Virus record (IMG/VR): IMGVR_UViG_3300044530_000062
Span: 1 to 38,342 of that record
Origin: a virus
Reading direction: 5' to 3' (one strand)
Length of the DNA stretch: 38,342 bases
Shown: positions 7,695 through 37,539 of the stretch, piece after piece
Numbering within the stretch: position 1 is the first letter of the stretch
How the letters are laid out: each line of letters opens with the position of its first letter
Made by a program: the position numbers and the translations under genes
Notes under the pieces: generated by a model
What the model was told of the DNA's origin: nothing
Databases searched by the model: none
Seen by the model: the letters and a program-made list of their open reading frames with translations, nothing else

Positions 7695-8720
7695 ATGGCT
7701 AATCGTTGGAAAGGTAATTTAGTTGCTAATGCGGCTACTTCTAGTGGTACGGACTATACTGGAAAAGCTAATGGTGCTTGGGGATTAAATAGTCAACTGC
7801 AACAAAAGCAAGGTGGGTTATGGGCTAAAGGTCAGACCGTACCTAATGCTCCTACTGGGGCATCTGCTGTAAATGGTGACGCATTGGCTATTATATCTTT
7901 TACAGCTCCGACAGATACTGGTGGTTTACCTATTACTAGTTACATTGTAACAAGCTCTCCTAGTAATATAACTGCCACAGGTTCAACATCACCAATTACT
8001 ATAACTGGGTTAACTAATGGAACGACATATACGTTTACCGTAACAGCCACAAATGCAGCTGGGGCAAGCGTACCATCTTCAACCACTAATAGTGTTACGC
8101 CAAGCGCAGTGCCCACAATAGGTCAAGCATTAGGGGGTGGTTTTTATGCAGGGTCAATTTCAACTTCTGGTAATGGTGTAGCAACTCATTATTTAATTGT
8201 ATCTCCTAAAGCCACAGGAGAATACTCAGATGGCAGTGGATGGGGCACTGCAAACACCACAACAGGTATTACTTCTGTAATAAACGGACCTACTAACAGT
8301 GCATCATTAGCTGCATTGGGTACGGATTATGGACCAGCTAGATTCTGCGAGAATCTAACTATCGGAGGTTATTCTGATTGGTATTTGCCCTCTAAAAACG
8401 AATTAGAAGTTTTATATTATTTTTTAAGAGCTTATACAACGGCTACTGTAGTAAACGATACAACTACAGGTGCAAACCCTAATGCAGTGTCACCTGAACC
8501 TATAAATACAAATTACACTACTACTAATCCTGGACAAACAACAGCGTCTAATTTTTATTCGACGACAGGTTCAGAAAGATTTATTGGTGGACCATATTGG
8601 ACATCCAGCGAGAGCGAAAGTAATTTTACTTGGGCGCAACACTTCTATGGAGGACTTCAATCTTCTCGACAAAAAAATAGCACTACTAATGTTAGAGCAG
8701 TTCGTAGAATACCAGTATAG
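7695..8720 (+). CDS. Adhesin-like virion protein: fibronectin III + DUF1566 (Lcl-like) domain
   Basis: A 341-residue two-domain protein. Residues 50-138 form a fibronectin type III domain ('APTGASAVNG', 'ISFTAPTDTGGLPITSYIVT', 'ITGLTNGTTYTFTVTATNAA'). Residues ~145-341 are a DUF1566/Lcl C-terminal domain with the signatures 'GGYSDWYLPSKNELEVLYY' (225 on) and 'YWTSSESESNFTWAQHFY' (301 on) ending 'NVRAVRRI'. DUF1566 is related to C-type-lectin/FGE-like folds used for ligand binding. With the FN3 spacer this suggests a host-surface binding tip. The N-terminal ~45 residues ('MANRWKGNLVANAA') probably attach it to the tail. Ribosome-binding site AAGGAG precedes ATG 7695. Confidence 0.8.
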   Translation: MANRWKGNLVANAATSSGTDYTGKANGAWGLNSQLQQKQGGLWAKGQTVPNAPTGASAVNGDALAIISFTAPTDTGGLPITSYIVTSSPSNITATGSTSPITITGLTNGTTYTFTVTATNAAGASVPSSTTNSVTPSAVPTIGQALGGGFYAGSISTSGNGVATHYLIVSPKATGEYSDGSGWGTANTTTGITSVINGPTNSASLAALGTDYGPARFCENLTIGGYSDWYLPSKNELEVLYYFLRAYTTATVVNDTTTGANPNAVSPEPINTNYTTTNPGQTTASNFYSTTGSERFIGGPYWTSSESESNFTWAQHFYGGLQSSRQKNSTTNVRAVRRIPV

Positions 8721-8729
8721 GAAAATAAA

Positions 8730-9155
8730 ATGTATATACAACTAACAAACATAGATGCAGGTACTAAAATACTCTGCACACAAGAACCGATGAGAACTGG
8801 ACCTACTTTGCCAGACGTGAAAGGTTTTCAATATAGTTTTGCTAATGAGTCAGATTATCCAATAGCTTTAAATGCTGACGGTAGTTATGCTGAAATGCCA
8901 CTGTATTACGGTACTTGTGACGATGACGCTGATACTTCTCTAACAGGAGTAGTTAAAGTGCTTACCGAAGCAGAGTTTAATGCAGATAAACAAGCAGAAC
9001 ATCAAGCTAGAAAGCCTTATCCTTCTTGGGTAGGTGACTTAGCTACTATGAGCTGGAACCCTCCAGTACCTTATCCGCAAGATGGAAATTTCTATCAGTG
9101 GGATGAGCCAACTGTGTCTTGGGTATTAGTTAATGCTCAATCTGCTACTGCATAA
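8730..9155 (+). CDS. Fibre-associated protein with WNPPVPYP C-terminal motif (possible fibre chaperone)
   Basis: A 141-residue protein. The C-terminal segment 'RKPYPSWVGDLATMSWNPPV' continuing 'PYPQDGNFYQWDE' and 'SWVLV' is a repeated W-x-P-P-x-P/Y-x-W-D pattern, conserved in cyanophage and other aquatic phage proteins that lie beside adhesin genes. It directly follows the FN3-DUF1566 adhesin gene, 9 bases after its stop. Such pairs are often fibre plus assembly helper, so a chaperone or attached tail accessory is the likely role. The assignment is by context. Confidence 0.6.
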   Translation: MYIQLTNIDAGTKILCTQEPMRTGPTLPDVKGFQYSFANESDYPIALNADGSYAEMPLYYGTCDDDADTSLTGVVKVLTEAEFNADKQAEHQARKPYPSWVGDLATMSWNPPVPYPQDGNFYQWDEPTVSWVLVNAQSATA

Positions 9156-9760: not shown

Positions 9761-11179
9761 ATGACAGTTAATTACACGACACTTTTAGGGTTAGCTAAAC
9801 CCGTTTCAGGTACAGAATCTGGTACATGGGGCGATACAGTTAATAATAACCTCACTGATTATTTAGACTCTGCTGTTGCAGGAGCACAGATTATTAGTGG
9901 CACTCAAACAGCCGTTACATTAAGTAAAACAACAGGTGCAAGTTTAAGTCAGGCAGGGTTATCAGGCATTACAGGCTCTTCGCAATATCAGATTATTCGA
10001 TGCACAGGTAACCCTGCAAGCTTGTTGACTATTACAGCGCCAGCAGCAGATAAAACATATGTAGTTATTAACGCAACATCTACATCTCAGTCAGTAAAAA
10101 TTGTAGGTGTAGGTCCAACAACTACAGGAGTTACTATTGCTTCTGGTAAAACAGCTCTAGTTGCTTGGAGCGTATCAGACTTTATTGAGATTACGCCCTC
10201 TACTATTTCAGGTATTCTTCCCGTTGCTAATGGTGGTACGGGTGCAACAACACTTACAGGTGTTTTAAAAGGTAATGGTACAAGTGCATTTACAGCGGCT
10301 ACTTCTGGTACAGATTACAGCGCAGGTACTTCTGCTTTAGCTACGGGTATTTTAAAAAGCACGACATCGACAGGCGCGTTGACTATTGCAGTAGCTGGTG
10401 ATTTCCCAACACTTAATCAAAATACCACAGGTACAGCCGCAGGTCTTTCTGCTACCTTGGCTATTACATCGGGCGGTACAGGGTCTACATCAACAACATA
10501 TTGTTCGTTAGCTACTAATGTAACAGGTACGCTTCCTGTCGCTAATGGCGGTACAGGAACAACAACTCCTGCGTTAGTTGCGGGAACAAACGTCACTATT
10601 AGCGGAACATGGCCAAACCAAACTATTAATGCGTCTGGTGGTGGTGGTGGCACAGTAACTTCTGTAAGCGGTACAGCTCCTATTTCATCGAGCGGAGGTA
10701 CAGCTCCAGAAATTAGTATTGCGCAAGCTACTACATCTACCAACGGTTATTTAAGCTCGTCAGACTGGAATACGTTTAATGGTAAATACTCAACAGGAGG
10801 TGCGCTTGGTACGCCTTCTAGCGGTACGCTGTCATCTTGTACGGCTGATGGGACAAATGGCGTTGGGTATAGGAATATTCCGCAGACTGGTAGTGATAAA
10901 ACTACTGCTTATACTTTAGTTACTGGGGATGTTGGTAAATATGTGGGCGTTGGGTCAAGTGGCTCTATTGTCGTCCCGACTTCTACATTTGCAAATGGTG
11001 ATGCAATTTCTGTTTATAACAACACGACAGGGAATATTACTATCACGACCAGTGCGCCTACAGCTTATATTGCTGGAACAAACACTGTTAAAACGTCTAT
11101 CACTTTAGCTACTCGCGGTATTGCTACGATTCTATTTGTTAGTGCAACAGTCTGTGTGGTGACAGGTAACGTGTCATGA
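9761..11179 (+). CDS. Tail fibre protein
   Basis: A 472-residue Thr/Ser/Gly-rich protein. The N-terminus 'TTLLGLAKPVSGTESGTWGD' then 'TVNNNLTDYLDSAVAG' is the usual attachment segment of aquatic phage fibres. The shaft shows the repeated ILPVANGGTG motif (152-161), a degenerate 'ITSGGTG' and LPVANGGTG (258-266), typical of trimeric beta-helical tail fibres. A 'GGGGG' linker near residue 292 leads to 'ISIAQATTSTNGYLSSSDW' and 'WNTFNGKYS', common in fibre C-terminal parts, and then a beta-sandwich-like end. It is ATGA-coupled to the following propeller gene. It probably contacts the host surface. Confidence 0.82.
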   Translation: MTVNYTTLLGLAKPVSGTESGTWGDTVNNNLTDYLDSAVAGAQIISGTQTAVTLSKTTGASLSQAGLSGITGSSQYQIIRCTGNPASLLTITAPAADKTYVVINATSTSQSVKIVGVGPTTTGVTIASGKTALVAWSVSDFIEITPSTISGILPVANGGTGATTLTGVLKGNGTSAFTAATSGTDYSAGTSALATGILKSTTSTGALTIAVAGDFPTLNQNTTGTAAGLSATLAITSGGTGSTSTTYCSLATNVTGTLPVANGGTGTTTPALVAGTNVTISGTWPNQTINASGGGGGTVTSVSGTAPISSSGGTAPEISIAQATTSTNGYLSSSDWNTFNGKYSTGGALGTPSSGTLSSCTADGTNGVGYRNIPQTGSDKTTAYTLVTGDVGKYVGVGSSGSIVVPTSTFANGDAISVYNNTTGNITITTSAPTAYIAGTNTVKTSITLATRGIATILFVSATVCVVTGNVS

Positions 11180-12450
11180 GCGGTATTATGCAGATGTTTT
11201 TTAATTCTGGAGCTAAAGATAATAATTTTATTGGTGTATTAGGTGCGTCAGTACAAACTTATGGACAATCAGTATCAGTAGATACAGACGGTAATATTTA
11301 TGTTTGTGGGTATTCTGGCAGCGGACCAGATATCCAATTAGCTAAGTATAACTCTAGCGGAGCTATACAATGGCAAGAAACTTTAAGTGATAGTGGAAAT
11401 AGTTACGGTATAGCTGTTGATTCAAGTAATAATGTGTATGTTTGCGGCCTCTCTTACGCTAGTGGAAATGCTGATATTCAAATAGTTAAATGCAATTCTA
11501 GTGGTGTTATTCAGTGGCAAAGACAGTTAGGTAACGCTGGGTATTCAGATGCAGGTTATGGTATAGCGGTTGATTCAAGTAGTAATGTTTATGTTTGTGG
11601 ATCAAGTGACCTCAATATTTTAATAGTTAAGTATAACTCTAGCGGAGCTATACAATGGCAAAGAAAACTATCTAGTGCTACAAACAGTAATGCTGGAAGA
11701 AGTGTTAGCGTGGATACAAGTGGTAATGTTTATGTTTGCGGCTTCTCTAACGCAACTGGCGCGTATTTATTTATAATCGCAAAATACGATTCTAGTGGTG
11801 TTATTCAGTGGCAGAGAAGGTTTGGGAATGGCGGGGCGACGCAATTTGGATATGGGGTATCAATAGACTCAAGTAATAATGTGTATGTTTGCGGCTCCTC
11901 TGACTTTGTTAGTGGAACTCAAGATATTATAATCGCAAAATACGATTCTAGTGGTGTTATTCAGTGGCAGAGAAGATTAGCAAGTTCGGGTAATGACTAC
12001 GGATATGGGGTATCAATAGACTCAAGTAATAATGTGTATGTTTGCGGAATTGCGCAAGGTACTAGTGCTGTTATGGTGCAAATAGTTAAATATGACGCTA
12101 GTGGTGTTATTCAGTGGCAAAGACAGTTAGGTAACGCTAATGGGAATAACGGATATGGGATAGCTATAGATACGAAAGGACATATATATGTTTGTGGAAA
12201 CACCATACCTAATGGTTCGTATAGAAATCTACTCATTGCTAAACTTCCTTCAGACGGGACATTAACAGGTACTTATACCGTTGGCGGGTATTCATTTACT
12301 TATTCTGCATCTTCATTAACTGATGCGTCAACCTCTTTAACTGAAGCCGCTGCAACATTAACTGATTCTGCTTCTACTTTAACTGACTCTGCTTCTGCAT
12401 TAACAGCAACAGCATCTTCGTTAACGTCTTCAATAAAAATAATCCCATGA
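11176..12450 (+). CDS. Beta-propeller (SBBP-repeat) protein of the fibre region with a heptad-repeat tail
   Basis: A 424-residue protein. Residues ~20-360 hold about seven to eight copies of an SBBP-like blade, each with D-[ST]-[SD]-[GN]-N-[VI]-Y-V-C-G and K-Y-[NDS]-x-S-G-[AV]-I-Q-W-Q (42-52 residues per copy). This predicts a beta-propeller. Residues ~380-420 are six heptads of the type S-x-L-T-D-S-A. The start overlaps the fibre stop (ATGA), and the end overlaps the next start by 4 bases. The cassette position suggests a distal fibre or receptor-contact subunit. Several blades are near-identical in DNA, which points to recent duplication. SBBP proteins are otherwise bacterial surface proteins, so acquisition from a host is possible. 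Confidence 0.75.
   Translation: MSGIMQMFFNSGAKDNNFIGVLGASVQTYGQSVSVDTDGNIYVCGYSGSGPDIQLAKYNSSGAIQWQETLSDSGNSYGIAVDSSNNVYVCGLSYASGNADIQIVKCNSSGVIQWQRQLGNAGYSDAGYGIAVDSSSNVYVCGSSDLNILIVKYNSSGAIQWQRKLSSATNSNAGRSVSVDTSGNVYVCGFSNATGAYLFIIAKYDSSGVIQWQRRFGNGGATQFGYGVSIDSSNNVYVCGSSDFVSGTQDIIIAKYDSSGVIQWQRRLASSGNDYGYGVSIDSSNNVYVCGIAQGTSAVMVQIVKYDASGVIQWQRQLGNANGNNGYGIAIDTKGHIYVCGNTIPNGSYRNLLIAKLPSDGTLTGTYTVGGYSFTYSASSLTDASTSLTEAAATLTDSASTLTDSASALTATASSLTSSIKIIP
11771..12047 (+). repeat. Long exact direct repeats within the propeller gene
   Basis: Bases 11771-11819 (49 bp) recur exactly at 11927-11975, 156 bases later. Bases 11848-11894 (47 bp) recur exactly at 12001-12047, 153 bases later. Both spacings are whole codons (52 and 51), so copies stay in frame. 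The repeats encode propeller blade cores and suggest recent duplication or gene conversion. Confidence 0.9.
12310..12430 (+). repeat. 21-bp / 7-residue repeats encoding SLTDSA heptads
   Basis: Six consecutive 21-base units, each encoding a Leu-Thr core: SSLTDAS, TSLTEAA, ATLTDSA, STLTDSA, SALTATA, SSLTSSI. The third and fourth units are nearly identical in DNA ('TTAACTGATTCTGCTTCT' against 'TTAACTGACTCTGCTTCT'). They form the C-terminus of the propeller protein. Confidence 0.85.
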
Positions 12451-12710
12451 CAAATACTTATATAAAAATATCAACACAAGAATATCCGCGCCATAAAGGT
12501 GATATCAAAATTGATTCTGTCGAGCAAAAAGATTACGCTATTGTTGAATGGGTTGATATGCCTGTATTTGACAGACAAACTCAACGATGTTATGAGGGGG
12601 TACCAGAAGAAATTGAGGGTGTGTGGTATATGACATGGATTGTTCGTGATGCAACGCAAGAAGAAATTGACTTTGCTAATAAACCTATTGACGAGAGGTT
12701 TCCAAAATGA
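12447..12710 (+). CDS. Small protein after the fibre genes, possible fibre assembly helper
   Basis: An 87-residue acidic protein starting in a 4-base overlap with the propeller gene and overlapping the holin start by 4 bases. Segments 'YAIVEWVDMPVFDRQTQRCY' and 'GVWYMTWIVRDATQEEID' give a small alpha/beta protein with many aromatic residues. No family is recognised with certainty. Location right after an adhesin gene is typical for fibre chaperones. Confidence in the gene is good, in the function low. Confidence 0.62.
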   Translation: MTNTYIKISTQEYPRHKGDIKIDSVEQKDYAIVEWVDMPVFDRQTQRCYEGVPEEIEGVWYMTWIVRDATQEEIDFANKPIDERFPK

Positions 12711-12895
12711 ACAAAATACTTAAAGCATGGAATTACTTAATGGCTCGGCTGAAAGAGCCGTCTACACACGCGAGTGTGGCAGCCTTAGCAACGATGGCGG
12801 GTATGAATATCGAGGCTGGTCCTATCCATGATGGGTTAACTGCGGCTGGCGTTGTGTTTGGTATGATTGGATTGTTTGTATCAGAAGGTAAATAA
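12707..12895 (+). CDS. Holin
   Basis: A 62-residue protein. After a short charged start ('MNKILKAWNYLMARLKEPST'), residues ~24-36 are Ala-rich ('ASVAALATMAG') and residues ~45-58 are strongly hydrophobic ('LTAAGVVFGMIGLFV'), ending 'SEGK'. Size and one to two membrane segments match small phage holins, which make pores in the inner membrane to release endolysin. It overlaps the previous gene by 4 bases, and the endolysin ATG comes one base after its stop, giving a classic holin-endolysin pair. Confidence 0.75.
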   Translation: MNKILKAWNYLMARLKEPSTHASVAALATMAGMNIEAGPIHDGLTAAGVVFGMIGLFVSEGK

Positions 12896-13263: not shown

Positions 13264-15369
13264 ATGCCATCAATCGGTCTTAAAAAACTTGTATTTAAGT
13301 CGGGAGTTAACCGAGAGAATACCCGCTATTACACAGAAGGCGGATGGTATGACTGCGATAAAATTCGTTTTCGTCAAGGCTCACCTCAAAAAATAGGAGG
13401 CTGGAATCGCATCTCTAGTGCTACCTTTAATGGAGTATGCCGCTCACTATGGGCTTGGCAAACACTTGCTCAAATACCGCTTATTGGCGTGGGAACAAAT
13501 ACAAAGTTTTACATCTCTCGTGGTGGGTATTACTACGATATCACTCCTATTCGCACAGCAACTAACTTAACTACTCCATTTACAGCAACTAATGGCTCTA
13601 CTGTTATTACAGTATCAGCGCCTTCTCATGGCGCTATTAACGGAGACTACGTTACATTTAATGGTGCAACGGGTTTAGGCGGAGCCATTACAGCGGCAAT
13701 CCTCAATACTGAGTATCAAATTACTTATGTTAACGCAAACTCTTATACAATCTCAGTTAGTATAGCGGCAACCAGTGGAGACACTGGGAACGGCGGCACA
13801 GTGCGAGCTGTATACCAGATGAATAGTGGCCCTGCATATCAAACAGCTGTTACAGGTTGGGGTGCTGGCGGTTGGGGTCTCGGTACATGGGGTACAGGCG
13901 TTGCGACTACGGACTCTCTTCGTGTTTGGTCTCAGAGTAATTATGGGGAAGACCTTGTGTTTGGTCCACGCACGGGGGCGATGTATTACTACTATGCGGG
14001 TAGAGGGGTTTCGTCTACCACAGCAACTATCCCAGTAGCATCCCCAGCAGTTATCACTACTACAAATCAGTATACAGAAGGCGCACCAATAGTCTTTGAG
14101 ACAACAGGCACACTTCCTACAGGGCTTAGTACAGGTACGACTTACTATATCCGCAACTATGCCACTGGTGTATTTAATGTCTCAGCTACGCCATCAGGTG
14201 CTCTAATCAACGCTACTGTAGCAGGGTCAGGTACGCAATCTATTTCAGCACGCGCAGTAAATTTAAATACTATTGCTGGAGCTTCAGATGTCCCCGTTAT
14301 TCAGAACTACATTACAGTATCCGATACTTTCCGCTTTGTATTTGCTTTTGGCGCTAATGACTACGGTGTATCTGCTCAAAGCCCACTGTTAATTCGCTGG
14401 TCTGACCAAGAGAACGCCGCTGACTGGACACCATCTACTACTAACCAAGCAGGGTCACTGACTTTAACTCGTGGGTCTCAGATTATTACTGCGCTTCAAA
14501 CACGCCAAGAGATTGTAGTATGGACGGATTCTACGCTCTACTCCATGCAGTACTTAGGTTATCCGCTGGTGTGGAGTGCACAGCTTCTTGGGGATAATAT
14601 CTCTATCGTAGGCGAGAACGCAGCTGCTTTGGCTTCGGGTGTTGTGTACTGGATGGGGCGAGATAAATTTTATAAGTACGATGGGCGTGTGCAAACACAG
14701 AACTGCGACTTACGGGAGTACATATTCAATGACTTCAATGCACAACAAACAGAGCAAGTCTTTGCCAGTACCAACGAAGGGTTTAACGAAGTCTGGTGGT
14801 TCTACTGCTCTGCCGGTAGCACTGTGGTGGACAAATATGCAATCTATAATTACGCTGAAGATATATGGTATTACGGCACGATGGGTCGTACCGCTTGGCT
14901 TGACTCTGGGATTTTAGAATTTCCTCTCGCTGCAACGTATGTTAATAACTTAGTTAACCACGAAAGTGGTCTTGATAATAACGAAACAGCTACGCCCACG
15001 GCTATTGAGTCTTACATTACAAGTTCTGAAACTGATATTGATGACGGGCACAACTTTGTGTTTATTCGCAGAATCCTGCCTGATATGACGTTTAGGGGTT
15101 CTACAACAGAGAACCCAACAGCAACACTTTCTATTATTCCTTTGATGAATGCAGGGAGTGGTTATACAGACCCAGCGTCTGTTGGTGGAACAAATGAAGC
15201 GGCAGTAACGCGCACAGCGACTGTGCCTATTGAGAAGTTTACAGGACAAGTATTTATTCGTGTACGCGGTAGACAGTTTTCTTTTAAAGTATATAACAAT
15301 CAGTTAGGGTCTATGTGGCAGTTGGGTGCTATGCGACTCGAAATTAAGCAAGACGGGCAGAGAGGATGA
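13264..15369 (+). CDS. Tail nozzle protein (T7 gp12 / P22 gp10-like role)
   Basis: A 701-residue, beta-rich protein. The N-terminus 'GLKKLVFKSGVNRENTRYYT' and 'GGWYDCDKIRFRQGSPQKIG' with 'SLWAWQTL' is the signature of the large nozzle or stabilisation protein of short-tailed aquatic phages. A 'GWGAGGWGLGTWGTG' segment lies near residue 198. Further on, 'DTFRFVFAFGAND', 'LLIRWSDQENAADWTPS', 'LGDNISIVGENAAALASGVV' and 'YWMGRDKFYKYDG' give the repeated blade-like pattern of a propeller. It follows the lysis pair by 13 bases and is ATGA-coupled to the next tail gene. The analogy with T7 gp12/P22 gp10 is by size, family pattern and position. Confidence 0.75.
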   Translation: MPSIGLKKLVFKSGVNRENTRYYTEGGWYDCDKIRFRQGSPQKIGGWNRISSATFNGVCRSLWAWQTLAQIPLIGVGTNTKFYISRGGYYYDITPIRTATNLTTPFTATNGSTVITVSAPSHGAINGDYVTFNGATGLGGAITAAILNTEYQITYVNANSYTISVSIAATSGDTGNGGTVRAVYQMNSGPAYQTAVTGWGAGGWGLGTWGTGVATTDSLRVWSQSNYGEDLVFGPRTGAMYYYYAGRGVSSTTATIPVASPAVITTTNQYTEGAPIVFETTGTLPTGLSTGTTYYIRNYATGVFNVSATPSGALINATVAGSGTQSISARAVNLNTIAGASDVPVIQNYITVSDTFRFVFAFGANDYGVSAQSPLLIRWSDQENAADWTPSTTNQAGSLTLTRGSQIITALQTRQEIVVWTDSTLYSMQYLGYPLVWSAQLLGDNISIVGENAAALASGVVYWMGRDKFYKYDGRVQTQNCDLREYIFNDFNAQQTEQVFASTNEGFNEVWWFYCSAGSTVVDKYAIYNYAEDIWYYGTMGRTAWLDSGILEFPLAATYVNNLVNHESGLDNNETATPTAIESYITSSETDIDDGHNFVFIRRILPDMTFRGSTTENPTATLSIIPLMNAGSGYTDPASVGGTNEAAVTRTATVPIEKFTGQVFIRVRGRQFSFKVYNNQLGSMWQLGAMRLEIKQDGQRG

Positions 15370-16451: not shown

Positions 16452-18124
16452 GTTGGATTGCGGTTATGGTTGGCGCCGGTGTTGGTGCTACTGCTGGGGG
16501 TGTTTCTGCTGGACTTAACGGTGGAGATGCTGGAGACATATTAAAGTCTATGGCTATCGGCGGTGCTATGGGTGGTGCTGGCGGGGGTATTGGCGGTGCT
16601 GTATTTGGTCCAGCGGCGGGTGTTGCTTCTGGTGCTGGAGGCGGTGCTGCTACTGGTGGAACTACTGGAGCTTTATCAGGCTCTGCCACCGGAACATTAG
16701 GGGCAGCAGGGAACGCTGCCGCAACATCTGCCATTACGCCTGTTTTTAGTAGTGCTACTACGGGAGCTATTGGCGGGGGTACTGGTGGAGGAGCTATTGG
16801 CGGGGGTACTGGTGGAGCAGGGTTTGCAGGGTTGAGTGGAGGTTCTGGACTTCTTGCTGGCGGTACTGGAGGGGCTGCTGGCGGTGCCAGTAGTGGAGGT
16901 ATTGGCAGTTTAGGTGCATCAGGTAATCAAGCCGCTGTTAATGCGTTGAACCCTCAGTCTGCTATGATTAGTCCTGGAACACTCCCTCCTCAACCTGGAA
17001 GTCCTGATTTTATTGGAGCCACTGCAACTCCAGATCAAATAGCCAATGCTTCAGCTTACACAGATGCCAATATAGGAACTCGCTTTCTTGCTGATTTAAC
17101 AGGGCAACAAGGGAATATAGTAGGTAACACAGGTCTTAAAATGGCGGGTGGGGCACTGCAAGGTGGTGTTATGAATGCAGGTATTAACGGTTTAGTTGCT
17201 GGCGCACAAGGTCAAGATGTTGGTGAGGCTATGGGTAAAGGTGCACTTACTGGTGCTGTAGGTGGCGCTGCGGGTGCTGGTCTTGCTTCTATGGCTGGTT
17301 CTGGGGGTACGTTAGGGAGTATCGGTAACTTTGCTGCTAAACATGATGTGCTTGTTCCGGCTGCACTTAGTATGGGTTCAGGTATGGCTTTAGACTCTGC
17401 CTTGGCATCTGACCCTACGATGCCAGAAGAAAAAGGTATTCGTAGTAACTATAAGTGGAACCCTAACGTATATAAGCCTTATGGACCTCAGTTTGCAGCA
17501 GGTGGGATTACCGATTTAGATAACTACGACCAAGCACCGCAGATGCAAAGCCCTGGAACACTTGATATCCCGAGCCGCAACGAAGTGTCAAACAATCAAG
17601 GTTATATGGGTGACTCTGTGCAACTGATGGCACATGGTGGTGTTACGGAGGAGTCTTTTATGTTGGAGGGGGTAGGTGGTAAAAACCTACATAGAGAGGC
17701 TTCGCAAGACTTGAGAGAGTTCTTAGAAGGTACACCAGATTCCGAATTAACAACAGCTCAACAACGTCAAAAACAAATCCTATTTGCTAAAAAGATGGCG
17801 ATGGGTGGGATGGCATATAATCACGGCGGTATTTCTGATTTAGGAGGGTATTCTGATGGCGGACGATTACTTAAAGGTCCTGGTACGGGGGTTAGTGATG
17901 ATATACCCGCAACCATTGAAGGAAAACAGCCAGCAAGATTGGCGGCAAATGAATTTGTGGTGCCCGCAAGAATTGTATCTGAAATTGGTAACGGGTCTAC
18001 TGATGCAGGTGCTAAAGCCCTATATGCTATGATGGATAGAGTGCAGAAAGATAGAAAAAAATCTATGGGTAAAGGTAAGTTTGCGGTTGATTCAAAAGCG
18101 TCTAGACATTTGGATGCGCTATGA
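16448..18124 (+). CDS. Gly-rich ejection-type internal virion protein
   Basis: A 558-residue protein. Residues 1-330 are Gly/Ala-rich with repeated G-x3-G glycine zippers ('MAIGGAMGGAGGGIGGAVFG'), typical of proteins that insert into membranes. Residues 349-355 (FAAGGIT), 394-400 (MAHGGVT), 450-456 (MAMGGMA) and 457-463 (YNHGGIS) carry the Gly-Gly motif. Residues 472-535 form a conserved phage module: 'GRLLKGPGTGVSDDIPATIE', 'GKQPARLAANEFVVPARIV', 'GNGSTDAGAKALYAMMDRVQ'. The gene opens the ejection block and is coupled at both ends by ATGA, the downstream partner being the HNH gene. I infer a role in DNA ejection across the cell envelope. Confidence 0.72.
   Translation: MSWIAVMVGAGVGATAGGVSAGLNGGDAGDILKSMAIGGAMGGAGGGIGGAVFGPAAGVASGAGGGAATGGTTGALSGSATGTLGAAGNAAATSAITPVFSSATTGAIGGGTGGGAIGGGTGGAGFAGLSGGSGLLAGGTGGAAGGASSGGIGSLGASGNQAAVNALNPQSAMISPGTLPPQPGSPDFIGATATPDQIANASAYTDANIGTRFLADLTGQQGNIVGNTGLKMAGGALQGGVMNAGINGLVAGAQGQDVGEAMGKGALTGAVGGAAGAGLASMAGSGGTLGSIGNFAAKHDVLVPAALSMGSGMALDSALASDPTMPEEKGIRSNYKWNPNVYKPYGPQFAAGGITDLDNYDQAPQMQSPGTLDIPSRNEVSNNQGYMGDSVQLMAHGGVTEESFMLEGVGGKNLHREASQDLREFLEGTPDSELTTAQQRQKQILFAKKMAMGGMAYNHGGISDLGGYSDGGRLLKGPGTGVSDDIPATIEGKQPARLAANEFVVPARIVSEIGNGSTDAGAKALYAMMDRVQKDRKKSMGKGKFAVDSKASRHLDAL
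16763..16816 (+). repeat. 27-bp tandem repeat, two copies
   Basis: Bases 16763-16789 and 16790-16816 are identical, encoding G-A-I-G-G-G-T-G-G twice inside the Gly-rich zone of the ejection-type protein. A recent slippage duplication is the simplest explanation. Confidence 0.9.
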
Positions 18125-18828
18125 TACCTGACGATTTATCAACTCTACCTACCACCCCTAAAGAAGCTAAACAGGTAGGGAGCAATATATATTTTACTGG
18201 TCTCTCATGCAAACACGGTCATATAACTTATAGATATACCTATGACAAGATATGCTCCACCTGTGCTAAATTAAAATCTAAATTAGCGGCAACAGTAAAA
18301 GGCGGTAACGCTAGACGGTGGGCAGCAAAAACTCCCGAGCAGTTACAAGGGATATATGCAAAACGGAAAGGCTATTATTACCGTACACATGAAGACCGCC
18401 TATTAGAAAAAAAGAAATCTTATGGTAAGTTAAAAGCTATTTCGGGGTGGTTAGAAAGCCGCCGATTAAAAGTAAATCAATACAGATTGATGCATGGTAG
18501 ACCTATAGAAAAGACTAACCCGCTAGTCAAGAAAAAATATAGAATGTCTGATAAAGGTCGTATAAGTAGCACGGTTAACGATGCTAAGAGACGCTCTGCT
18601 CAACTAAAACGTACCCCAACATGGTTAACAGAGAATGACCGTTGGATGATTGAGCAAGCGTATGAGCTTTCAGTATTACGCACAAAACTATTTGGGTTCT
18701 CATGGCACGTTGACCACGTAATACCTTTGCAGGGTAAGTATGTTTCTGGGCTTCATGTACCGACAAACCTTCAAGTAATTCCAGCCACGGAAAATCTCCG
18801 CAAGGCTAATAAACACCTGCCAGCTTAG
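18121..18828 (+). CDS. HNH homing-type endonuclease 2
   Basis: A 235-residue HNH nuclease. The N-terminal zinc site is C30-x3-H34 and C45-x2-C48 ('LSCKHGHITY', 'KICSTCAKL'). The Lys/Arg-rich middle is longer than in the first HNH protein. The catalytic core has D198-H199 ('HVDHVIPLQG'), H212, N216 ('PTNLQVIP') and 'ENLRKANKH'. The start codon is inside the stop of the ejection-type gene (ATGA), so it is translated by coupling although its product is not a virion part. N- and C-terminal segments match the HNH gene at 730-1296. It is probably a mobile homing gene. Confidence 0.88.
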   Translation: MIPDDLSTLPTTPKEAKQVGSNIYFTGLSCKHGHITYRYTYDKICSTCAKLKSKLAATVKGGNARRWAAKTPEQLQGIYAKRKGYYYRTHEDRLLEKKKSYGKLKAISGWLESRRLKVNQYRLMHGRPIEKTNPLVKKKYRMSDKGRISSTVNDAKRRSAQLKRTPTWLTENDRWMIEQAYELSVLRTKLFGFSWHVDHVIPLQGKYVSGLHVPTNLQVIPATENLRKANKHLPA

Positions 18829-18837
18829 GAGACATAG

Positions 18838-20886
18838 ATGGATATTTTACCAGCATCAACAAAATCAGATTGGTGGACAGTACTCACTGACAATAATCCT
18901 ATTAAAGGTCGTAACTTAAAAGATAATATTAATCTTCCTGCGTTTGAAACACTTCAAGCGCAACTAGCTAAAGCTAAAACAGTACCCGAGCAAATTGGAT
19001 TATGGCAAGCGTTTTTAAAAAACCCTGCAAACATAAACGAGGCAGGGATGCCTATTGCCAAAAAAGCGCTTAATACGTGGATGACTGACGGTAAAATGCC
19101 GTCTAATGTACAAGCTGCTTTATCTAAAAACCCTTTTGCTACATTACCTCCGTTAGCTCAAGCTCAGTTAACTTATGATAAGACTGACCCTGCATCAGTT
19201 AAAAACTATGCAACTGCGTTAAAAGACACTTATGGTAATTTAAAAAAAGCAGATGGTACGCCAGAGTTTACGCCAGCCTATTTAGAAAGTGTAGCAGCAG
19301 GGACTATCCCCCAAGATACATTTGATACGCGCATAAATAATATTGCAGTCAAGGCGGCTACTGCTGACTTAAAGGCTCAAGGTATTAGTCTTGCTGATGT
19401 AGGTGGCGCGGAAGGTCTTGCGAGTAGCGGTAAGTTAGCTGAATATCTAAACGACTCGACTAAATTAGCCTCAGCCTATACTTCAACTCCTACAGCAGGT
19501 TCTACGGTAACGGGTGGAGCGGGTAATGATACTGTACCAAATGAAGGGATTACTGCGCTTGGACCTTATACTGGTAGTATCAGTGAGGTAAACACGCCAG
19601 CAAAAATGAAGCAAGTCGTAGATAACTACGACCCTAACAAAGGGGTATACCGTGCACCGTCATTAGATGCTTCTGGTAACTTAGTTGCTAACTCTACATC
19701 GCCATACTCAAACATCTTAAACGGGATGTTATCAGGGCATAAAAATCCTTATGCGGCGGGTTATACAAATCAGCTAACTATGCCTGAAACGCCTGATTTA
19801 ACCAATATCAAAAAATCGTTTGAGAACAACCCCACGTCTAAAGACTTATTAAAATTAGCTAACTCTGCTGGTCAGCCTTACGACCCCAATGCAATAACAA
19901 GCTTATCCCCTGCACTGTCAAAGATGTATCAGCCTAGTATTACTAACTCAGCAGGGAAAGCAACTAAACCAGGTGCGCCTGATACAACGAAAACAACACT
20001 TCCTGTAGTGCCTAATACTGTTGTTAATCCTAATACTGTTGTTAATCCTAATACTGTTGTTAATCCTAATACTGTTGTTAATCCTAATACTGTTGTTAAG
20101 CCACCTGTAAAAACAACCGCTGAGTTAGCAGCAGAGAAATTTGCAGCAGATAAAGCCGCTGCTATGAATTCGTTTACTGCAGGGGATTATATAGAACCCT
20201 CTACTAGAACACGGGCGGATTTACAGACTGTCGCAACAACAGACCCTAAAATGGCGGCTCAATTGGATTGGTCTGCAACACAAGATGCAACTAGAGCACA
20301 AAATGTTAAACCTATAGTAACGCCACTGGTAACTAAACCTGAATTTACAGTAACCCCTCAAACATCATATAGTTCGGCTGACTATTCACCTGAATTAAAA
20401 GCAGCATTAGCTACACGAGCTATTACAGATACACAAAATGCTACTGTAGGTGACACAATCACAGCCAACGATAATTTAGCTAGGGGAATAGTAACCCCTA
20501 ATATAAATACTAATGTATCTACAGGTAATATGAACACCTATGCAACGGGCCCCAATGGTGAGTCTGGTATACCCTCTGCATTAACTACAACCCCTCAATT
20601 TACATCAGGAGATTATATACCTCCTGCTAATAGAACAATGTCTACAGTTGCAAATAACCCAGCATTAGCAAATCAAGTTGCATGGTCTGCAACACAAGAT
20701 GCTGCGCAAGCAAAACAAGCGGCGCCCGCTGTAGGTATAAACACTTTACCTAATAACACAGGTGCGACTGGGACTACCTCCCCTGCACCTTTTACTGTGA
20801 ACTCAACAACATCATATAGTCCGAATGACTATTCACCTGAATTAAAAGCAGCTTTAGCTGCACGTGCAGCGTCTATGAGTCAGTAA
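18838..20886 (+). CDS. Large internal/ejection-block protein with repeats
   Basis: A 682-residue protein with helical N-terminal ~230 residues ('FETLQAQLAKAKTVPEQIGL', 'LKAQGISLADVGGAEGLASS'), then a Pro/Asn/Thr-rich, probably disordered part. Five tandem copies of P-N-T-V-V-N lie at residues ~392-421. After this, a two-part module occurs twice: FT[AS]GDYI...WSATQDA, then SY[SP]...DYSPELKAALA.RA. ATG 18838 has TAGGAGACATAG upstream. The gene follows the HNH gene by 9 bases. No known family; position within the ejection block suggests a virion protein delivered with the DNA. Confidence 0.68.
   Translation: MDILPASTKSDWWTVLTDNNPIKGRNLKDNINLPAFETLQAQLAKAKTVPEQIGLWQAFLKNPANINEAGMPIAKKALNTWMTDGKMPSNVQAALSKNPFATLPPLAQAQLTYDKTDPASVKNYATALKDTYGNLKKADGTPEFTPAYLESVAAGTIPQDTFDTRINNIAVKAATADLKAQGISLADVGGAEGLASSGKLAEYLNDSTKLASAYTSTPTAGSTVTGGAGNDTVPNEGITALGPYTGSISEVNTPAKMKQVVDNYDPNKGVYRAPSLDASGNLVANSTSPYSNILNGMLSGHKNPYAAGYTNQLTMPETPDLTNIKKSFENNPTSKDLLKLANSAGQPYDPNAITSLSPALSKMYQPSITNSAGKATKPGAPDTTKTTLPVVPNTVVNPNTVVNPNTVVNPNTVVNPNTVVKPPVKTTAELAAEKFAADKAAAMNSFTAGDYIEPSTRTRADLQTVATTDPKMAAQLDWSATQDATRAQNVKPIVTPLVTKPEFTVTPQTSYSSADYSPELKAALATRAITDTQNATVGDTITANDNLARGIVTPNINTNVSTGNMNTYATGPNGESGIPSALTTTPQFTSGDYIPPANRTMSTVANNPALANQVAWSATQDAAQAKQAAPAVGINTLPNNTGATGTTSPAPFTVNSTTSYSPNDYSPELKAALAARAASMSQ
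20011..20100 (+). repeat. 18-bp tandem repeat, five copies (PNTVVN)
   Basis: The unit CCTAATACTGTTGTTAAT occurs four times exactly at 20011-20082, with a fifth copy ending in AAG at 20083-20100. It keeps the reading frame and encodes P-N-T-V-V-N four times then P-N-T-V-V-K. Perfect identity indicates recent slippage expansion, so copy number may vary between relatives. Confidence 0.95.
20359..20870 (+). repeat. Diverged direct duplication of the DYSPELKAALA segment
   Basis: The DNA at ~20359-20417 (encoding TSYSSADYSPELKAALATRA) recurs at ~20807-20870 (TSYSPNDYSPELKAALAARA). A stretch of identical bases covers 'GACTATTCACCTGAATTA' and the following AAAGCAGC. The adjacent FT[AS]GDYI/WSATQDA segment is duplicated in the same order, at ~20170-20290 and ~20599-20720. 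Confidence 0.8.
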
Positions 20887-37236: not shown

Positions 37237-37539
37237 TTATTTTTCGTTATGTATAAATACTAATCTAGACAGGTACCATTGCGCTTTCTGCAAGTCTTCA
37301 TGTGCTTTACCTTTGTTTCGGTATCGCCACATATACTTAAAGGCGTTGCCTCGCAGATACCCAATAAACTCTTCGGGCGTAAGCATTGCTTCCATCGCCT
37401 CAATACACTCTATTTTACCATTTTTGTAGTGTGGAGGCTCGTTAACCATGTCTTCTTTTTTAGCTTCGTGTACTGAGTCACCCATGTATAATTGCCCCTG
37501 TGTGTATGCATCGTAAATTGTTTTAGGTTTGTCGTTCAT
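37237..37539 (-). CDS. DUF3310 protein (T7 gp1.7-like)
   Basis: A 100-residue protein with the DUF3310 signature: 'NEPPHYKNGKIECIEAMEAM' (P-x-H-Y near 35-38), 'GYLRGNAFKYMWRYRNKG' (60-77) and 'EDLQKAQWYLSRL' (81-93). T7 gp1.7, a nucleotide kinase that phosphorylates dTMP, carries this domain, so a role in nucleotide supply fits the thymidylate synthase gene nearby. It is coupled by ATGA to the preceding zinc-finger gene. Confidence 0.85.
   Translation of the reverse strand: MNDKPKTIYDAYTQGQLYMGDSVHEAKKEDMVNEPPHYKNGKIECIEAMEAMLTPEEFIGYLRGNAFKYMWRYRNKGKAHEDLQKAQWYLSRLVFIHNEK

Follow-up and report, generated by a model that had tools for sequence, protein, structure and literature searches.

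In this study, we found that a phage gene directly downstream of a tail fibre gene is predicted to encode a closed seven-blade SBBP propeller, that close relatives of this gene keep seven blades, and that the gene appears to have moved, together with the end of the fibre gene and a small downstream gene, between otherwise unlike phages. We consider it probable that the product is a virion-attached receptor-contact ring of seven blades, encoded in an exchangeable cassette of leader, ring and small gene, with exchange of blades within the gene and selection for ring closure. The window, i.e. the whole stretch of DNA analysed here, is IMG/VR virus record IMGVR_UViG_3300044530_000062 (38,342 nt), and L003 below denotes contig IMGVR_UViG_3300042471_001099, which carries a near copy of the propeller gene. 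The features concerned are as follows.

9761-11179, + strand: tail fibre gene, 472 aa, named by position and by its L003 homologue
10793-11176, + strand: C-terminal part of the fibre (residues about 345-472), common to other phages with MSG-type propellers
10766-12726, + strand: cassette common with L003, 3 mismatches in 1961 nt, flanks otherwise unlike
11176-12450, + strand: SBBP seven-blade propeller gene, 424 aa, its start overlapping the fibre stop (ATGA at 11176-11179)
11176-11223, + strand: leader, residues 1-16, with residues 1-13 at pLDDT under 50
11224-11241, + strand: N-terminal strand, residues 17-22, before unit 1, presumed Velcro closure of blade 7
11263-11388, + strand: blade unit 1, by the blade profile, as are units 2 to 7
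11404-11532, + strand: blade unit 2
11554-11673, + strand: blade unit 3
11695-11826, + strand: blade unit 4
11848-11979, + strand: blade unit 5
12001-12132, + strand: blade unit 6
12151-12264, + strand: blade unit 7, without its last strand
11771-11819, copy at 11927-11975, + strand: 49-nt exact tract, C-D strands of blades 4 and 5
11848-11894, copy at 12001-12047, + strand: 47-nt exact tract, A-B strands of blades 5 and 6
12265-12447, + strand: C-terminal tail (residues 364-424) of 7-residue repeats, short strands in the model
12447-12710, + strand: 87-aa partner gene, its start overlapping the propeller stop (ATGA)

The start/stop overlap confirms the coupling of propeller gene and fibre gene noted by the first-pass annotation, and the place of the propeller in a fibre cassette is likewise supported. 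The fibre protein of the window has no Pfam match and only a weak PHROG match; its L003 homologue matches PHROG families of tail fibres, in a region that overlaps in part. Judging by the position of the propeller gene in a structural gene run and by the annotations of its relatives, the product is presumably part of the virion. In the propeller tail, 21-nt repeats (12291-12404) coincide with short strands predicted about every 7 residues. Elsewhere in the window, a gene with fn3 and Lcl_C (7695-8720) followed by a 141-aa gene (8730-9155) forms a second candidate receptor-contact unit, and relatives of both genes adjoin propeller cassettes in L088, with a relative of the Lcl gene also in L102. 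A perfect 18-bp tandem repeat of 4.9 copies at 20011-20099 encodes PNTVVN repeats, and the proteins of 703-1296 and 18121-18828 are ones that we take to resemble HNH endonucleases.

The 424-aa protein matches Pfam SBBP (PF06739) in 7 stretches (E 1.8e-48, 162.6 bits against a cut-off of 20.5). Structure prediction, which the first-pass annotation had named as a check, gave a seven-blade SBBP propeller: the AlphaFold2 model, made from an alignment of 19 family members, contains strands only and has a pLDDT of 91.2 and a pTM of 0.90. Its nearest solved structures are CylK entries (7ron and others), with a Foldseek TM of 0.74 by query length and a VIA-align superposition of Z 47.4 and 1.8 A over 347 residues at 28% identity; next in VIA-align come designed rings of seven blades, and an entry that bears the title 'highly repetitive propeller structure'. 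Unit 7 ends at profile position 37 of 44 and a strand (residues 17-22) precedes unit 1, from which we infer the usual Velcro closure. By prediction, the protein of 11176-12450 is thus a closed seven-blade propeller.

Blades were counted with a profile seeded from four relatives and iterated, units under 8 bits being dropped, and the family statistics come from the best 80 of 536 loci ranked against the seven-blade query, a sample that leans to close relatives. Blade units occur in 86 distinct frames, 5 of which (L015, L028, L029, L030 and L033) reach the end of their contig with the ring still incomplete. Exactly seven units were found in 77 of the 81 uncut frames. The remaining four, two of L031, one of L032 and L076 2916-4574, are diverged; in these, two to four units were detected, or three to five of positive score when a wider profile was used. 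No frame with five, six, or eight or more units was present among the 81, so that the variation in blade count among close relatives that we looked for was not found, and the changing blade number that had been proposed is not supported. The statistics on homogenisation, partner, loops and leader rest on the 77 seven-unit genes only, which include L002 (gene identical to that of the window), L003, and L042, a gene that runs off its contig end past unit 7.

A second search used the C-terminal tail alone, which is less tied to the ring, and was counted with the wider profile. It gave seven units in L122, a contig already in the set, and in L132 (where the first profile had placed six above 8 bits), fourteen units as two runs of seven in L134, seven plus four over 8 bits with two more near zero in L133, and six units in L135-L137, which are one protein on three contigs. 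Judged by eye, L135 may contain a degenerate seventh unit. Close relatives thus keep seven blades, and distant ones are mostly, not always, detected as sevens. A blade count and sequence fixed in all relatives had been named as what would speak against the reading of the first-pass annotation; about half of this is what we found, as the count is nearly fixed and the sequence is not. If the favoured reading is true, the propeller family would be a case of repeat homogenisation with little change in repeat number.

The occurrence of SBBP repeats in a phage had been considered unusual, which proved wrong. A scan of viral contigs with the single protein gave 32 loci, a profile scan of IMG/VR found a relative encoded in 536 of 573 pattern stretches, and 40 records of annotated phages match as well, a number in which some phages are entered twice; the idea that the SBBP family is new to phages was rejected on these grounds. 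The annotated relatives are mostly from Synechococcus phages and cyanophages, and also from Nitratiruptor and Leptospira phages, and they carry names such as tail fiber protein, baseplate wedge subunit, beta-propeller repeat protein and virion structural proteins. Bacterial genomes contain 35 relatives, which are more distant (no more than 45% identity in the best-matching segment), and host assignment through them was abandoned since none is close. If the proposed role is true, the propellers would form a candidate family of phage receptor-contact domains present in hundreds of stretches from uncultured viruses.

The propeller gene contains seven 47-nt repeat units with start-to-start distances of 138-153 nt. 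The exact DNA repeats of 47-49 bp at 51-52-codon spacing reported before were confirmed: the 49-nt tract at 11771 recurs at 11927 (156 nt, 52 codons) and the 47-nt tract at 11848 recurs at 12001 (153 nt, 51 codons). Further maximal exact tracts are one of 41 nt at 11498/12098 (blades 2 and 6), one of 34 nt at 11343/11628 (blades 1 and 3), and those of 27, 26, 25 and 25 nt. These go beyond what synonymous codons would give, since in 500 shuffles with protein and codon usage unchanged the longest tract averaged 18.4 nt with a maximum of 33, and tracts of 25 nt or more numbered 0.05 on average and 1 at most, as compared to 8 observed. The description of the blades as near-identical was overstated, because whole-blade identity is 0.50-0.78 in DNA and 0.33-0.74 in amino acids; only one pair of the 47-nt units is exact and the other five are 66-79% identical.

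The same tendency is seen across the family. In 69 representatives drawn from the 77 at less than 85% identity, blade DNA identity is 0.643 within a gene, as compared to 0.575 for the same position and 0.571 for different positions between genes, and the same residue is written with the same codon at a frequency of 0.580 within genes versus 0.447 between them. Identity within exceeds identity between in 61 of the 69 at the DNA level and in 38 at the amino-acid level (31 of the 69 do not exceed it there), and 37 of the 77 genes have a longest tract above that of every one of 30 codon shuffles, which 40 do not. Since blades resemble those of their own gene more than the equivalent blades elsewhere, blade-to-blade homogenisation at the DNA level is supported by these comparisons. 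In the window, the A-B half of blade 5 is nearest to blade 6 (0.98) and its C-D half is nearest to blade 4 (0.98). Of 47 exact matches of at least 32 nt between genes less than 80% identical, 37 join blades of unlike position. At blade 5, 161 nt in a row are identical between L022 and L089, whose proteins are 74% identical, as if a single blade had been exchanged. Three base differences separate the propeller genes of L003 and the window: two adjacent ones at 11449-11450 and a third at 11827. All are nonsynonymous, and together they alter two residues, both of which fall in variable loops. Read by eye, the change at 11449-11450 makes blade 2 match blade 5 over six more bases, which is suggestive only.

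Recent expansion or frequent gene conversion had been proposed as the source of the repeats. The part of this that stands is copying of DNA from blade to blade; conversion would be one mechanism for it. A tandem-repeat (TRF) row at 11771-12067 describes a duplicated 153-nt unit, and a single shifted duplication of about this length, instead of repeated conversion, could have produced both the 49-nt and the 47-nt tract; such a duplication does not account for the 2-6 and 1-3 tracts.

In four-stranded up-and-down blades, which these should be, the B-C and D-A loops lie on the same face. Column entropy peaks mostly between positions 17 and 27, which follow strand B, and at 42 and 2 (strand D to the next strand A), and strand position 15 is also variable. 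When 13 close pairs are pooled, pN/pS comes to 0.16 for the framework and to 0.50 and 0.42 for the loops. The loops appear relaxed with a ratio not above 1, and may be merely less constrained; positive selection on them was rejected, as the pooled ratio is below 1 in every class of these pairs. L002 and L003 give no defined ratio, as all three differences between this pair are nonsynonymous. We also considered copying of the framework only, with the loops spared. This predicts higher synonymous divergence in the loops, which was not found in the 15 most homogenised genes (0.430 between blades in the framework versus 0.473 in the B-C loop). Where both flanks are at least 0.95 identical, the D-A loop stands at 0.62 in the window and its L003 copy (random pairs, 0.567). 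Unlike loops between identical flanks are nevertheless not a general rule, since blades 2 and 6 of L042 have identical flanks and an identical B-C loop, and loops average 0.72 in blade pairs with flanks of 0.90-0.95.

A member of the 87-aa protein family lies directly 3' of 49 of the 77 propeller genes, with an exact 4-nt overlap in 44 (the L026 match is weak, at E 2.9e-3, and the L014 start is placed 57 nt too early with the ATGA overlap present). It is absent within the searched stretch in 28, several of which stand second in a pair of propeller genes. Consecutive propeller genes with the partner between them were observed in L004, L006, L007, L021, L044, L069, L083 and L092, and long open frames of 1077-1424 aa, with the propeller and extra C-terminal sequence, in L026, L039, L054, L096 and L107. 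Phage_tail_APC (PF16778) was detected in 5 of 8 chosen partners, which were picked mostly for length, and in 4 of 31 aligned ones, 27 being without it; the long partners of L075 and L026 have no such match, nor does the shorter 87-aa partner of the window in Pfam. A model of the latter (pLDDT 83.6, pTM 0.60) gave no significant match among solved structures or folds. Its place and family suggest that the 87-aa protein is a putative chaperone for the ring.

The leaders follow the upstream gene. The fibre C-terminal domain is found upstream of 13 of 14 propellers with the MSG-type leader and of 0 of 63 others, and the 131-aa or partner gene upstream of 34 of 35 with the MS-RY-type leader and of 0 of 42 others, the leader classes having been set after the sequences had been viewed. 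It is reasonable to hypothesize that this match reflects docking of the leader on the upstream protein, and plain linkage of neighbours could also yield it.

Natural swaps bear on the cassette more directly. L003 and the window have 3 mismatches over 10766-12726, a region with the fibre C-terminus, the propeller and the small gene, and differences rise only past both ends; at the left edge of L003 there are 27 in 10515-10765 and none from 10766 to 11448. Outside the cassette, a single small ORF among those listed for L003 matches the window at E 1e-3 (58.6% over 70 aa, window ORF 37237-37539), the tail-region proteins of L003 match other PHROGs or none, and the endolysin is of phrog_7 in L003 versus phrog_894 in the window. 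Conversely, alignment of L082 with L003 gives 72.7% over 1175 nt for the downstream genes, 85.6% over 376 nt for the DNA of the fibre C-terminus and 72% over 365 nt for the partner region, and no match between the two propellers in DNA at E 1e-10. Against the window propeller, L082 gives at E 1e-3 only short 68-70% matches in the blades and 78% over 55 nt in the tail, its protein being about 47% identical. L003 and L082 thus have related backbones with different rings, one of which is that of the window. A ring plus its partner also occurs under different leaders, in L060/L078 (89% over 1561 nt) and L070/L088 (85% over 1502 nt). From these alignments, the cassette has evidently been exchanged between otherwise unlike phages, and the larger finding here is the modularity of leader, ring and small gene. 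The window and L003 represent one ring on two backbones, and L003 and L082 two rings on related backbones, natural pairs that make the proposal that the ring alone sets host choice directly testable. Separately, L002 equals the window from 5176 to about 13676 and then shows 174 differences in 13264-14590, a break that is either a recombination border or an assembly effect.

In the scenario that we favour, the short leader would hold the closed seven-blade SBBP ring to the fibre encoded upstream, and the small downstream protein would help to fold or cap it. Leader, ring and small gene would recombine as a cassette between phages with unlike flanks, and blades would exchange DNA by unequal recombination or gene conversion, keeping the strand framework alike. 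The B-C and D-A loops, expected on one face, would vary, and ring closure would select against most other blade numbers. The role in receptor contact assigned by the first-pass annotation is plausible from the fibre cassette, and receptor binding is presumably what the ring does. If this holds, leader, ring and putative chaperone are legible from sequence as separate exchangeable parts. We put forward only tentatively a wider version, a scaffolded recognition repertoire, in which the ring framework is continually homogenised, up to 14 loops on one face are free to vary, single blades and whole rings are swapped between phages, and the short leader directs the ring to its fibre partner.

An alternative to continuing exchange starts from the amplification-differentiation cycle that is known for propellers at large (Pereira and Lupas 2022, PMC9218822). 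In this view the whole ring was recently re-amplified out of one or two blades and has drifted since, with neither ongoing conversion nor a special role in phages. This would suit the similar synonymous divergence of framework and loops and the rise of loop identity with flank identity, of which the blades 2 and 6 of L042 are the extreme. We regard it as possible and rather doubtful, since the same paper reports a lineage-preferred blade number plus many larger and smaller ones, in contrast to the near constancy of seven seen here with none at five, six or eight, and since the longest tracts of the window link blades 4-5, 5-6, 2-6 and 1-3 and the two halves of blade 5 are closest to different blades. 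It is quite improbable that protein constraint and codon bias explain the similarity within genes and an assembly artefact the sharing of cassettes. SBBP blades are alike by nature, and the contigs are metagenomic, so that L003 could in principle be an assembly chimera; however, the 49-nt tract surpasses the 33-nt maximum of 500 synonymous shuffles, L002 (identical to the window there) and L003 carry different sample numbers, L003 diverges gradually at the left and would need two junctions, and L060/L078 and L070/L088 show the same kind of sharing under different leaders.

Compared with these accounts of its origin, a different function for the favoured ring has also to be considered, namely that of an enzymatic propeller, acting for example on a surface polymer as in some phage tail propellers. 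The closest solved structure is the enzyme CylK, and propellers in phage endosialidases are noted in PMC4901313. We consider this function unlikely, as the CylK sequence match covers the repeats and the most conserved residues (G, D, N, K, W and Q) recur in each blade unit with no single special site. Like the window propeller, CylK belongs to the SBBP repeat family and has seven units that superpose closely, whereas it is a Friedel-Crafts enzyme of Cylindospermum with extra N-terminal residues (the match starts at 251), and the window propeller is encoded by a phage gene in a fibre locus and has a short leader and a tail of 7-residue repeats.

Propellers in phage host-recognition proteins are known. 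According to PMC4901313, the receptor-binding protein Gp45 of Staphylococcus phage phi11 is a multidomain homotrimer with five-bladed propellers, and gp131C of PhiKZ is seven-bladed and lies at the baseplate periphery, receptor binding being only speculated for it. The window propeller would share such a role by inference, and neither protein appeared among its sequence matches in the search that gave CylK. Alteromonas phages A5, V22 and P24 have a fibre and cognate chaperone common to different tail types (PMC10579305). Those modules differ from ours, as the word 'propeller' occurs 0 times in the main text of that paper and the tip in the window is an SBBP ring, and the small genes here mostly encode short proteins related to that of the chaperone family. 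In Pam3 gp25, of the Tfa type, the N-terminal domain is variable and the C-terminal one conserved (PMC9608196). As with Tfa-type chaperones, the small gene lies directly 3' of the gene for the fibre tip and some longer relatives contain PF16778, whereas the 87-aa member in the window is without this part and without a structural match. In the recently amplified propellers described in PMC9218822, too, the blades of one gene resemble each other more than they do those of other genes; the spread of blade numbers is wider there than in the window family, which is nearly fixed at seven, and the mean within-gene identity in the window (0.57) is below the 60% line given there; the main text of that paper makes no mention of phage or SBBP. 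Among the papers listed in literature searches, no title or opening of an abstract describes an SBBP-ring fibre cassette. The kinds of element are thus each known, and what we would call new is their combination: seven nearly fixed and homogenised blades, a leader, a chaperone-like partner, and natural swaps.
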